From assembly GCA_902571925.1 (NCBI GenBank), contig CACGDW010000005.1, positions 1 to 48,677 on the forward strand: a stretch of DNA of 48,677 nt, read 5' to 3'. Source of the stretch: an uncultured Pelagibacteraceae bacterium. GTDB lineage: Bacteria > Pseudomonadota > Alphaproteobacteria > Pelagibacterales > Pelagibacteraceae. A model generated the notes under the pieces. It worked only from the letters and a program-made list of their open reading frames with translations, was not told the DNA's origin and made no database searches. The position numbers and the translations under genes are program-made. Position 1 is the stretch's first letter. Each line of letters begins with the position of its first letter. Positions 2 through 38,910 of this stretch are shown here, piece by piece.

Positions 2-2068
2 TTAATTTCACATAAGTTTTCAAATGAAAAACAGCTTTTGCAGATCAGATTAAACAAATCAATATATTTAATTGAAATTAACTTAATTGGTAAAATACAA
101 ATAAAAAATATATTAATGGCAATATTGGCCGCACATAAGACTGGTCTTAAATTTGAAAAAATAATTAAAGTTATTCATAAATTGAAACCTGTCAAAGGTA
201 GATTAGAAAAAATAGGAAAAATTAAAAATAATAGTAAGGTAATTTTAGATTATGCCCATACTCCAGAAGCGTTAAAACTTGCTTTATCAAATCTTAGAGA
301 GCAGTTTCCTTCAAGCAAGATAAGTTTAGTATTTGGCTGTGGGGGTAATAGAGATTATAAAAAAAGATCTATAATGGGTAGAATTGCAGAAAAATATTCT
401 GATGAAATTTATTTAACAGACGACAATCCAAGAAATGAAAATCCTTCAAAAATTAGAAAAGATATTAAAAAAGGTTTCAAAAAAGTTAAATTTCAAGAAT
501 TTTCTAGTAGGAAAAAAGCAATTTACGATGCCGTAATGCGTCTCAAAACTGGGGATTTATTATTAGTAGCTGGAAAAGGCCATGAAGAAACTCAAGATTA
601 TGGAAAAAGAAAATTATTTTTTTCAGATACTCAAGTTATTTTGAAATCAATTAAATTTAAGAATAAATCTTTATCTAACAATTTAAAATTAAATATTATT
701 AAAGAAGTATCAAATTCTGCAATACCAAATAAACTTAATATTAACAATATTTCTATCAATTCAAAAACAATTAAAGAAGATGATGTTTTCTTTGCAATTA
801 AAGGAAAGAGAGTTGATGGGAATAAATTTATTTCAGAGGCTTTCAAAAAAAAATCAAGTTTGGTGATTGTGAATAAAATAAATAAAGATTATCCATCTTC
901 TAAACAAATTAAGGTAGATAATACTCTTAATTTTTTGTCAAAATGTTCAAGTATTTTAAGAGAAAATACAGATGCGAAAATAATTTCAATTACAGGAAGT
1001 TGTGGAAAGACAACTCTAAAAGAAATGGTTGGATATACCTTAGGAAAAATATCAAAAACAACTTATTCTCAAAAATCTTATAATAACAAGTATGGAGTTC
1101 CTCTAAGTTTATTTAATTTAAAACATAATGACAATTTTGGTGTACTCGAGGTAGGGATGGATAAGAAAGGCGAAATAGACAATTTAACAAAAATTATAAA
1201 ACCAGATTTAGGAATTATTACCAATATAAGCTATGCCCATTCAAAAAATTTTAAAAATATAAAACAAATAGCCTCTGCTAAAGCAGAAATGATGAATAAT
1301 ATTAAAGAAGGAGGAATAATTGTTCTTAATTCAGATGATACTTTTTATAGCTACCATAAAAGGGTAGCTATGAAAAAAAAATTAAAAGTAATTTCATTTG
1401 GGATTGAAAATAAATCTTCTATGGCAAGATTGATTAAAATTAGAAAGATGAAAAATAAATATGAATTGTTTTTCAATATTAATAACGTTAATGTCTCATT
1501 TTATTCTGATAATGATAATAAAAGCAATCTATACAATATACTCGCAACTCTTACCTTGATAAATTTATACAAAGATATCAAAAGATTAAAGAAAAATATT
1601 TTTCTGGGTTTCAAAATCCCTAATGGAAGAGGAGATATTTCAAAAATTAGATTAAAAGATAAAAAGATTTTTTTAGTAGATGAGACTTATAATTCAAATC
1701 CATTATCGTTAAAAACAGCAATAGAGAATTATAATAAGATATTATCAAAAAATTCAAAAAAATATCTAATATTGGGTGATATGCTTGAACTAGGTAAACA
1801 TTCTATAAATCAGCATAAGTTAATAAGTAAGATTATCAATAAAACAAATATAAACCAGGTATATGTGATTGGAAAATATGTCAAACATACTTTTAGGAGT
1901 TTAAAAAAAAATAAAAAAGCTCAAATATTAGATAATAAATTAGGTATAGTAGATTTAATTACTAAAAATTTAAATAATAATGATTATTTAATGATCAAAG
2001 GATCAAATTCAACTGGACTTCATAAAATAACATCTAGTTTAAAACAAAGAAATTTACATGCTATATGA
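2..2068 (+). CDS. murE-murF: MurE-MurF fusion ligase (5' partial)
   Basis: One uninterrupted frame carries the C-terminal part of MurE followed by a complete MurF; the frame is open to the left edge, so the 5' end is missing and the TTG at 38 is not a credible start. MurE adds meso-diaminopimelate, and MurF adds D-Ala-D-Ala, to the UDP-MurNAc peptide in the cytoplasm. The MurE part shows the motif DYAHTPEAL, the CGGNRD segment and, at about nt 422-433, DNPR, the signature known to select meso-DAP over lysine. The MurF part begins roughly at nt 690-750 and has the P-loop GSCGKTT at nt 995-1015 and the DETYNSNP motif. The fusion puts two consecutive lipid II steps on one chain. The stop overlaps the mraY start by 11 nt. 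Identity is secure; the N-terminal MurE half is not visible. Confidence 0.93.
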
Positions 2069-8914: not shown

Positions 8915-9829
8915 TTGAAAAAAAGAATATTAATAATTTCTGGAGGAATATCTAAAGAAAGAGTTATAAGCCTTGATACAGGTCGACAAGTAGCAAAAGA
9001 ACTTATTAAGAATAATTATAAGGTAAAAATTGTTGAACCTAATTTTAAATTACTAAATTTAACTAAATTATTTAAACCAAATATCATTTTTAATGCACTT
9101 CATGGTCAATTTGGTGAGGATGGATATATTCAGACTATTTTAGAGACTTTAGGAATACCATACACTCACTCAGGCGTAATTTCATCTTCAATAGCTATGG
9201 ACAAAGAGCTTTCAAAAAAGATATTTATCAAAAACAGAATATTAACTCCTAAATATTTTTTATATTGTTTTGATAAATCAAAATCAGAATTAGTAAAGTT
9301 AATAGAAAAAAAAATAAAGTTTCCAGTAGTGATCAAACCAATAAATGAAGGTTCAAGCGTCAATGTATTTATCTGTTCAAAATCAAATATATTTGAAAAA
9401 ATTAAATTGTTGAAAGATTATAAAAAAATTATTGTTGAGCAGTTTATACCAGGTCGAGAAATTCAAGCAGCTATTATTGGTCAAAAAAAACTTGGAGCTA
9501 TCGAACTAAAACCAAAAAGAAAATTTTATGACTATCAGGCAAAATATAACTCTAACGCAAAAACTAAGCATATTATTCCAGTTGATTTATCAAAAAAGAA
9601 TTATAATAAAATTATGAATTTAGCTTTTAAAGCACACACGCTAATTGGATGTAGAGGTGTAACTCGATCAGATTTTAAATTTCATGAAGGAAAATTCTAT
9701 CTTCTTGAAATAAATACTCAGCCAGGTATGACAAGTCTTTCTTTAGTTCCCGAGATAGCTGCATATCATGGGATTAGTTTTATAAAATTAATTGAATTAG
9801 TTCTTAAAGATGCCTCTACGAAAAAATAA
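8915..9829 (+). CDS. ddl: D-alanine--D-alanine ligase
   Basis: Ddl makes the D-Ala-D-Ala dipeptide used by MurF. This ATP-grasp enzyme of 304 residues shows the N-terminal SGGISKERVISL segment, ALHGQFGEDGYIQ, the ATP-binding PVVIKPINEGSS, and the Mg-binding EINTQPGMTSLSLVPE near the C-terminus. The start is a TTG one base after the murB stop; no better upstream start exists because the family motif begins about eight residues in. The 3' end overlaps ftsQ by 20 nt. Confidence 0.95.
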   Translation: MKKRILIISGGISKERVISLDTGRQVAKELIKNNYKVKIVEPNFKLLNLTKLFKPNIIFNALHGQFGEDGYIQTILETLGIPYTHSGVISSSIAMDKELSKKIFIKNRILTPKYFLYCFDKSKSELVKLIEKKIKFPVVIKPINEGSSVNVFICSKSNIFEKIKLLKDYKKIIVEQFIPGREIQAAIIGQKKLGAIELKPKRKFYDYQAKYNSNAKTKHIIPVDLSKKNYNKIMNLAFKAHTLIGCRGVTRSDFKFHEGKFYLLEINTQPGMTSLSLVPEIAAYHGISFIKLIELVLKDASTKK

Positions 9830-10484
9830 AAAGATTTGGGTATATTTTTTTTTATTTATATTGTGTGGGACTTTTAGTAATAAATATTTAAATAATATTA
9901 ATTTTCCAAAAATAAAAAAAATTGAAGTTTTAGGTCTTGAAGAGAACAATAAAATTAGATTATCTGAAAAACTAAGTTATTTAAAACAGCAAAATCTTTT
10001 AATTCTAGATCAAGATAAGATTAAGAATATCTTAAACTCTAATTATTTAATAGAGAAATATTTTATTGTTAAGGAATATCCTTCATCTTTAAAATTTAAG
10101 ATTATAAAAACAAAATTTTTAGCTAATTTAAGTAAGGATGGTAAATTGTTTTTTTTAGGATCAAATGGAAAATTAATTGAAACAAAAAAATCTCTTGAGA
10201 ATATTCCTTTTGTTTTTGGTGAGTTTAATGAAGTAGAATTTTTTATATTTAAATCAATAATAGATGATACTTCATCATTAGATTATAAAGAAATTAAAAA
10301 TCTATTCTTTTTCCCCTCAGGAAGATGGGATTTTGAAACTCATTCGGATCAATTAATTAAACTACCAAAAGTAAAAATAAGAGAGTCTTTAGAATTGTAT
10401 TCTAAGATAAAAAAAGATGAGACTTTTAGTAATGCAAAAGTTATTGATCTTCGACAAATAAATCAATTAGTAATAAATGAATAG
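9810..10484 (+). CDS. ftsQ: Cell division protein FtsQ (short)
   Basis: FtsQ is a bitopic divisome scaffold that binds FtsB/FtsL. The protein has a short basic cytoplasmic N-terminus, one membrane helix at about residues 8-26, then a POTRA-like stretch starting at KIEVLG with the typical NLLILD and SSLKFKIIKTKFLA segments. C-terminal similarity to FtsQ is weak by eye, but the size (224 residues), topology and position between ddl and the ftsA remnant fit. It is at the short end for alphaproteobacterial FtsQ. Confidence 0.85.
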   Translation: MPLRKNKKIWVYFFLFILCGTFSNKYLNNINFPKIKKIEVLGLEENNKIRLSEKLSYLKQQNLLILDQDKIKNILNSNYLIEKYFIVKEYPSSLKFKIIKTKFLANLSKDGKLFFLGSNGKLIETKKSLENIPFVFGEFNEVEFFIFKSIIDDTSSLDYKEIKNLFFFPSGRWDFETHSDQLIKLPKVKIRESLELYSKIKKDETFSNAKVIDLRQINQLVINE

Positions 10485-11181
10485 CGATAAAGATTTTAAA
10501 AGTTACTTATTAGTTAGTCCAAAAAAAATTGCTATTCTTGTAAAAGAGGAATTAAATCCCAAGGAAATCTATAAAAAAGAAATATTTGTACATACTGAAT
10601 CAAACTCAATTAATTTAGAATTTTTAAGTCATTTTCTCGACGAAAATATCTTTAAGATAGAAAAAACTTTCAAAAGATTTATTAAGAATATTTATTTAAT
10701 TATCGATACTAATGATTTTTTACCGATTAAAATCTCTATTAGAAAAAAAGATCATAATAATACAATTGACACGAAAAATTTGATTTATCTATTGAACGAA
10801 GCAAAAGATCAGTGTCAAAAAACATTAGAAAATCAAAGAATAGTTCATACTACTATTGAAAATTACTTAATTGATAATATCAGTTATTCTTCTTTACCAG
10901 AAAATAAAGAGTGTGGTAATTTTTGTTTAGATATAAAATTTATTTGTATTTCCGATAAATTTATAAAAAATTTAGAGAATATTTTAAAAAGATATCACAT
11001 TTCTGTAAATCAAGCAGTGAGTGTAGAATATTTAAACCAGTATTTTTCTCAAAATGAGCATAAAATATTCGATATGGCTGAAAAAATAATTTCTGGTTGT
11101 AATGAAAATGAAATTATATTCAGTAACAAAAGTAGCAAAAACAAAGGTTTTTTTGAAAAGTTTTTTAATTTATTTAGCTAA
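10477..11181 (+). CDS. ftsA: Minimal FtsA-like protein lacking the ATPase core
   Basis: This 234-residue protein sits exactly where ftsA is expected, between ftsQ (8-nt overlap) and lpxC. By eye it aligns with the first ~190 residues of FtsA. Residues 9-24 match the first strands of domain 1A, but the phosphate-1 DIGT loop is replaced by VSPK. Residues ~50-78 match the helix and strand before domain 1C. Residues ~96-190 match domain 1C/SHS2, including the stretch QRIVHTTIENYLID and the segment KNLENILKRYHISVNQAV. Domains 2A and 2B, with phosphate-2 and adenosine motifs, are absent. It ends with GFFEKFFNLFS, which looks like the FtsA-type amphipathic membrane anchor. FtsA normally has about 400-440 residues. 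Inference: it may bind membrane and divisome partners without nucleotide-driven polymerisation. The homology is by position and partial pattern and needs a profile or structure check. Confidence 0.7.
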   Translation: MNSDKDFKSYLLVSPKKIAILVKEELNPKEIYKKEIFVHTESNSINLEFLSHFLDENIFKIEKTFKRFIKNIYLIIDTNDFLPIKISIRKKDHNNTIDTKNLIYLLNEAKDQCQKTLENQRIVHTTIENYLIDNISYSSLPENKECGNFCLDIKFICISDKFIKNLENILKRYHISVNQAVSVEYLNQYFSQNEHKIFDMAEKIISGCNENEIIFSNKSSKNKGFFEKFFNLFS

Positions 11182-11246
11182 CTTGTATTTAATAGTAACA
11201 TTTGTTGTTTTTAATGTTAGTTTTTTTCGTACTAAAACTTCTCTCA

Positions 11247-12167
11247 ATGTCAAGTTTGAACCAAAAAACCATTAAGAATAGTTTCACGCTAGAGGGTATA
11301 GGTCTGCATACAGGAAAACAAGTGGTAATGACTGTAAAGCCAGCTGAACCAAATTTTGGTATTGTTTTTAAAAGGGTTGATCTTTTAAAAGATAATCTTG
11401 TGGTTCCAAATGTTTACAATGTGAGTAATGCATCTTATTGCACTACAATTACTAACGATAATGGAATTTCAGTATCTACTATTGAACATTTAATGGGAGC
11501 TCTTTATGGAATAGGTATTGATAATGCTTTAATCGAAATTGATAATCAAGAAGTCCCTATTTTAGATGGATCTGCAAAAATTTTTGTAGAAAAAGTTTTA
11601 AATGTTGGAATTGAAGTTAGTGATACTCCAATCAAAATTATCAAAATAGAGAAAGAAATTGAATTATCATTAAATGGGAAAAATATAAAAATAAAACCAA
11701 GTAAACTTAGCTTAGATATAGATTTTGAAATAAAATATACTAATTCTTTAATTGGCACACAAAGAAATTCAATTGACGTTTATAAATCAAATTTAGAAGA
11801 TATTTACAGTTCAAGAACATTTTGTCTATTTGAAGATATAGAAAAACTAAGATCAAATAATTTAGCTTTAGGTGGTTCTTTAGATAATGCAATCGTTGTT
11901 AAAGACAATGAAGTTTTAAACAAGGAAAAATTGAGAAATGATAAAGAATTTGTTAACCATAAAATTTTAGATTGTATGGGCGATCTATATCTTTCAGGTT
12001 ACAAAATTCTTGGAACCTTAATTTGTTCTCAAGGTGGACATATGCTTACTAATCAGCTTTTAAGAAAGGTATTTGATAATAACAGTAACTTTTCACTTCT
12101 TGAAGTTAAAGAAAAAACGGTACCCAATACATTAGTAAACAGAAGACATTTAAAATCTATCGCTTAA
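11247..12167 (+). CDS. lpxC: UDP-3-O-acyl-GlcNAc deacetylase LpxC
   Basis: LpxC is the zinc deacetylase that commits UDP-GlcNAc derivatives to lipid A synthesis. Seen are GIGLHTGK, the zinc-ligand histidine in VSTIEHLMGAL (His81), VPILDGSA, the second zinc motif NHKILDCMGDL, and GGHMLTN with the catalytic-loop histidine. The ATG at 11247 gives 306 residues, matching the family; the frame extends to an ATG at 11202, but the 15 extra hydrophobic residues do not match LpxC. Its presence indicates a lipid A-containing outer membrane. The usual upstream neighbour ftsZ is missing. Confidence 0.96.
   Translation: MSSLNQKTIKNSFTLEGIGLHTGKQVVMTVKPAEPNFGIVFKRVDLLKDNLVVPNVYNVSNASYCTTITNDNGISVSTIEHLMGALYGIGIDNALIEIDNQEVPILDGSAKIFVEKVLNVGIEVSDTPIKIIKIEKEIELSLNGKNIKIKPSKLSLDIDFEIKYTNSLIGTQRNSIDVYKSNLEDIYSSRTFCLFEDIEKLRSNNLALGGSLDNAIVVKDNEVLNKEKLRNDKEFVNHKILDCMGDLYLSGYKILGTLICSQGGHMLTNQLLRKVFDNNSNFSLLEVKEKTVPNTLVNRRHLKSIA

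Positions 12168-36298: not shown

Positions 36299-38910
<2,612 letters not shown>

Follow-up and report, generated by a model that had tools for sequence, protein, structure and literature searches.

A shortened FtsA without domain 2 between ftsQ and lpxC in a genus of Pelagibacteraceae

FtsA is regarded as a homologue of actin that binds ATP and links FtsZ both to the membrane and to the enzymes that build the wall. Its usual and best known partner at subdomain IC is FtsN. According to the sections of PMC7613929 on FtsA contacts, FtsN binds the cleft between IA and IC, mainly IC, which also takes part in lateral contacts; longitudinal contacts within the filament are made by IIA and IIB, and the tail attaches to the membrane. 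The relevant extract of PMC4281207 assigns FtsZ binding to S12-S13 of subdomain 2B. No earlier description of an FtsA lacking domain 2 was found in the open-licence literature.

A stretch of 48,677 nucleotides from an uncultured Pelagibacteraceae bacterium (assembly GCA_902571925.1, contig CACGDW010000005.1), hereafter the window, contained a short ftsA frame on the plus strand. It started with ATG, its first few bases still lying within the 3' end of ftsQ. The ftsA stop was separated from the first possible lpxC start by 20 bases, and the gene thus stood between ftsQ and lpxC in a division and wall cluster. The features of the locus were as follows.

9810–10484, plus strand: ftsQ, upstream neighbour; POTRA_1 22.7 bits (cut-off 23) and FtsQ_DivIB_C 20.5 bits (cut-off 21), both marginally below
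10477–11181, plus strand: short ftsA, a domain-1-only FtsA of 234 aa, from profile matches, model and fold comparison
10495–10704, plus strand: first part of domain IA, residues 7–76, with three strands, a helix and a strand, from model secondary structure and alignment to long forms
10513–10524, plus strand: degenerate phosphate-1 loop VSPK, D/E-x-G-S in long relatives, from sequence comparison
10720–10953, plus strand: domain IC (SHS2), residues about 82–159, from TIGR01174, structure-chain and Pfam matches and the model
10954–11043, plus strand: second part of domain IA, residues 160–189, from profile match and model
11044–11064, plus strand: site of the missing domain 2 (about 150 residues in the long form), from alignment
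11065–11091, plus strand: last helix of domain IA, residues 197–205, from alignment and model
11101–11115, plus strand: conserved [ND]xxE[VI] linker stretch, in 71 of 73 short and 11 of 45 long forms
11143–11178, plus strand: amphipathic tail KGFFEKFFNLFS at the C-terminus, better conserved than any other part of the short forms, from alignment and conservation
11202–12167, plus strand: lpxC, downstream neighbour; 11202 is its first possible start

ftsQ was found at the same locus in all 74 short forms counted, and the gap between ftsA and lpxC comprised 0–216 bases at these 74 loci. About 450 bases would be required for the other half of ftsA, so that neither these gaps nor the 20 bases of the window offer space for it. 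The frameshift considered in the first-pass annotation as a possible cover for the missing half was therefore not present. In members of the genus, murE and murF formed one fused frame of about 940–955 aa (window 38–2068; L089, 10514–13357), which matched the NCBIfam bifunctional MurE/MurF with an E-value of 1.3e-282. In the sister family, murF was separate, with about 454–461 aa.

In the alignment of short and long forms, domain 1 was shared to about residue 189. A single block of about 150 residues, carrying the phosphate-2 and adenosine motifs, was then absent, and the short forms resumed with the last IA helix, the linker and the tail. The short protein is thus an FtsA that lost domain 2 through an internal deletion, with IA, the inserted IC (SHS2) and the membrane tail remaining. 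IIA and IIB, which hold the filament interface and the FtsZ site, were both missing. The domain 2 model PF14450 had no match at E 0.1 among 16 short forms and matched all three long FtsAs scanned. The C-terminal 38 or so residues of one short form (G108) and one long form (G025) were nearly letter-identical. Of 73 short forms, 72 showed the tail pattern, which, judged by sequence, represents a putative membrane-targeting helix. The tail was only mildly amphipathic, with a median of 5.7% of shuffles reaching the same value. The [ND]xxE[VI] stretch, with columns N209 and E212 in L032–L035 and A2, followed the last helix and preceded the tail. The first-pass annotation had described the loss of the 2A/2B half and the retention of the C-terminal tail, and both hold against the long relatives, the tail following directly on the aligned last helix and linker. 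Its description of a protein reduced to SHS2 and tail was wrong. Alignment, model and fold comparison all placed the remainder of domain IA, including its last helix, in the short protein.

The replacement of the phosphate-1 loop by VSPK, also read from the window at first pass, proved general. The [DE]xG signature was found in none of 73 short forms versus 43 of 45 long ones in the genus, and the phosphate-2 and adenosine signatures were likewise missing from the short FtsA. One short form (G108) retained the D of phosphate-1 (DLSS). The loss of phosphate-1 within the retained part would fit a decay of the nucleotide site after the loss of domain 2. From the missing motifs and the missing IIA–IIB interface, it is fair to infer that the short FtsA would neither bind ATP nor form actin-like filaments. 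Full-length FtsAs of the sister family (including L102, L103 and L106–L108) showed DIR at phosphate-1 in six of eight cases and QVG and QID in the other two, with Q, N or R in place of the phosphate-2 G, so that their ATP site looks weakened too. The 396-aa FtsA of L239 (G114), whose ATP motifs are degenerate (EINN) and whose branch is very long, was counted as long.

The FtsA ancestry of the short protein was established by locus, profile matches and fold, in agreement with the first-pass assignment of the frame at the ftsA position. TIGR01174 matched residues 86–182 of the window protein on profile positions 85–179 (E 9e-4, 18.4 bits), below its curated cut-off of 175.85, which was reached by only two of 61 genomes and by no long form of the genus. 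Pfam gave no match for the window protein alone, and SHS2_FTSA matched five of 16 short relatives (best E 6e-5). A profile of 16 short forms matched 11 long FtsAs of the genus over residues 5–189 (E 9.5e-33) and seven long FtsAs of the sister family (E 7.9e-7). Among solved FtsA chains, this profile matched 7q6d (E 1.9e-4), with residues 92–191 on FtsA 99–196. An AlphaFold2 model built on a six-row alignment showed a pLDDT of 80.9 and a pTM of 0.78, with residues 217–234 of the tail below 50. Foldseek searches with this predicted model returned FtsA at ranks 1–19, with 4a2a as the best match (E 1.8e-11, TM 0.63 by model length), which supplies the structural match the annotation had called for. 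In VIA-align, 194–204 residues of the model were superposed on FtsA at 3.1–4.2 A (Z 12.2–15.4). The aligned range ran from FtsA residue 2–8 to 371–392 in chains of 362–388 residues, and about half of FtsA was therefore skipped.

A first protein search of 60 relatives already showed two sizes of FtsA within one genus. A 34-row profile of FtsA domain 1 then matched 131 of 201 genus genomes, including 24 of the 29 that were at least 90% complete. Five of the 131 were left out as fragments (G117, G152, G167, G198 and G209). The 140 loci examined comprised 126 of the genus, nine of the sister family and five named contigs (L032–L036), which may duplicate some of the other genomes. An ftsA frame was present in 139 of these loci and absent from G045. 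After exclusion of 10 frames at contig ends, 129 uncut frames were counted. Of these, 73 encoded 220–249 aa, 53 encoded 360–399 aa (eight from the sister family) and three were disrupted (G010, G012 and G164); none encoded 250–359 aa. The shortened protein expected at the ftsQ–lpxC junction of relatives is thus retained in many species. A second draw across the whole order yielded frames of 223–245 aa in at least 53 additional genus genomes and of 370–401 aa in at least 23. Three more genus genomes, among the matches listed, had shorter frames (G334, G357 and G360). Seven single-contig genus genomes were among the matches listed: G226, G227, G231 and G106 with intact short forms, G230 and G232 with long forms, and G012 with a disrupted short form. 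The frame in G012 (L019, 1470–2169) broke at a T and A run, and its mraY and murD frames were short as well, which suggests sequencing slips. In seven genomes, contigs ended within ftsA (L240, L242–L246 and L232), which may reflect differences between strains in this gene. Other genera of the family were represented among the matches listed by five frames of 320 (near a contig start), 398, 399, 399 and 405 aa, and the sister family by frames of 397–403 aa. Among the matches listed, the short form was seen in this genus only. The genus may be Pelagibacter itself or may fall in the HIMB59 group, which is divided into two families in the portion of PMC10734472 that treats it.

A tree of eight linked genes with 27 rows required three changes of form. 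A single short clade was rejected in the AU test (p 0.0016), with p 0.008 for the pairing A+C, 0.013 for B+C and 0.062 for A+B, values that take no account of the groups having been defined after viewing a first tree. A tree of five genes with 124 rows, in which seven cut frames and G012 were assigned their form by hand from the preserved part, showed five changes, and the long forms of G023, G183 and G201 were nested in a short clade. FtsA's own tree showed two short groups, and one origin was not rejected (p 0.413). Set against each other, the linked-gene trees and the FtsA tree point to several deletions, or to one deletion with recombination or locus exchange. Domain 2 was perhaps dropped more than once or its loss spread by recombination.

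A second FtsA was searched for with an ftsA profile in nine short-form and four long-form genomes of 95–100% completeness. None was present in the nine near-complete short-form genomes. Other matches in these genomes were frames of 343–366 aa (profile 169–346) and of 641–655 aa. The short ftsA of G226, G231, G227 and G106, four of these nine, and of G012 scored too low to be listed. In the window's genome, the frame corresponding to the 343–366 aa class was MreB (window 37876–38910), and a frame of 647 aa also matched; the 641–655 aa frames, this one included, were taken for DnaK by size. With 73.55% completeness on 37 contigs, the window's genome cannot by itself prove the absence of a second FtsA. 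The full-length copy that would have overturned the annotation was thus found neither in the near-complete genomes nor in this incomplete one.

This incompleteness and the frame break in G012 are the points in favour of an assembly error or sequence slip, with a full-length FtsA hidden or located elsewhere. The single-contig G226, G227, G231 and G106 carry intact short forms and no further FtsA, and the gaps to lpxC are only 0–216 bases, which reduces this explanation to a negligible probability. It is scarcely more credible that the protein is not FtsA and belongs to another membrane-anchored family of the fold. The model also matched PilM (E 6.8e-7) and GspL/EpsL (E 1.5e-5; Z about 10), but behind the 19 FtsA ranks with E down to 1.8e-11 and Z 12–15. 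Locus and sequence are moreover common to the long FtsAs of sister species, and the cluster is one of division and wall genes rather than of secretion or pilus genes. A decaying remnant of little use, disappearing in the course of genome reduction, deserves somewhat more attention, since the sequence changes fast. The A2 rows were only 25–49% identical to the window protein, the three disrupted frames among 129 are compatible with decay, and the distant short pair G022/G024 reached a dN/dS of 0.528. Against this stand 73 intact frames that hardly vary in length, and the invariant residues E62, K63, Y185, E212, F226 and F230. Mean pairwise identity in the 73 short forms was 0.655 for the tail, 0.326 for IC and 0.267 for the first strands. 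The closest short pair, G032/G035, had a dN/dS of 0.143 (NG86) and 0.185 (YN00) over 207 codons, and the lpxC of the same genomes 0.062 and 0.045. These estimates show a signature of purifying selection on the close short pair. Two wider short pairs had 0.272 and 0.289, similar to the 0.217–0.334 of wider long pairs, with dS high throughout the wider pairs and YN00 mostly failing. A remnant thus appears quite unlikely.

Divisome partners were then compared. The FtsZ C-terminal peptide [LF]EIPAFLRRQ was present in all nine short-form and all 11 long-form genomes with the FtsZ end available, G021 being excluded from the count for its cut ftsA frame. Its retention suggests that some partner still reads the FtsZ peptide, perhaps the short FtsA. 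SepF was found in none of 201 genus genomes by a profile search with a positive control, and the ZipA C-terminal domain in none of 15 genomes, the control being positive in E. coli only; together these results leave no known replacement anchor. FtsN was not found in the 15 genomes. SPOR matches in six of them looked RlpA-like with lipoprotein starts, and one SPOR protein scanned had an RlpA match (E 1.1e-4) below its cut-off. These proteins were rejected as FtsN on those grounds, and a diverged FtsN may exist. FtsZ had no match in the window's genome and was also missed in the short-form G006 (68% complete) and G035 (86% complete). In relatives, ftsZ was located about 15 kb upstream of ftsA, ahead of murE–murF and not between ftsA and lpxC (e.g., G022, C1, 116732–117214). 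The corresponding position lies beyond the contig start of the window, so that the absence there carries no meaning, and a loss of FtsZ was rejected. Sister-family frames of 192 aa with 30% identity, presumably a Maf-type protein, were dropped as chance matches.

The retained part is the docking and membrane part, and the lost part holds ATP binding, filament contact and FtsZ binding, which suggests that the short FtsA serves the divisome as a monomer-like adaptor at the membrane. A maintained FtsA without domain 2 that serves as a membrane adaptor without ATPase, FtsZ being anchored otherwise or via a new contact, is the best explanation and a reasonably probable one. The short FtsA would be held on the inner membrane by its tail, either monomeric or linked through IC–IC contacts, without ATP binding or actin-like protofilaments. 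Its IA–IC cleft would be offered to the cytoplasmic tails of other divisome proteins; the recruitment of late divisome proteins, proposed at first pass, may be inferred from this. FtsZ would probably be tied either by another anchor or through domain 1 at a new contact, because its known site lay in the lost IIB. The short FtsA could also have remained the FtsZ anchor itself, with the FtsZ peptide bound on a new site of domain 1, e.g., the IA surface bared by the loss of domain 2. The conserved FtsZ tail and the lack of SepF and ZipA make this a serious rival, and the tail of the short FtsA is kept as well. The FtsZ site described for other bacteria lay in IIB (PMC4281207, relevant extract), however, and the FtsZ tail may serve other partners, which leaves direct anchoring rather unlikely. 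We tentatively consider it a real possibility, if not quite a probability, that the genus divides by FtsZ without an FtsA-IIB contact, ZipA or SepF, its ring held by a contact or anchor new to science.

If the genus does divide in this way, FtsA would come apart naturally into an actin-like half that can be dispensed with and a docking half that cannot. A natural FtsA minus domain 2 separates the roles assigned to FtsA and reveals which half evolution can drop. That the shortened gene is kept after domain 2 has gone raises the question of how the ring stays on the membrane. As short and long forms occupy the same locus in one genus, comparative tests of partners, of a surviving FtsZ contact and of the role of IC are at hand.

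Among known systems, the closest were the long FtsAs of the genus, with open frames of 377–402 aa. They share the ftsQ–ftsA–lpxC locus, domain 1, the final IA helix and the tail motif with the short form, but possess domain 2, the phosphate-2 and adenosine motifs and, in 43 of 45, [DE]xG. The FtsAs of the sister family f2 (open frames of 397–403 aa) have the locus, domain 1 and SHS2 in common with it and differ in having kept domain 2, although phosphate-1 [DE]xG was present in none of eight. GspL/EpsL, in its cytoplasmic domain, and PilM have a related fold, GspL being titled an inner-membrane component of type II secretion; they differ from the short FtsA in a weaker fold match and in locus and pathway. 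The solved FtsAs of Thermotoga, Vibrio, E. coli and Staphylococcus (1e4g, 4a2a, 7q6f, 7q6d and 3wqt) show the same fold of IA and IC, whereas domain 2 and the ATP and FtsZ sites are absent from the short form.
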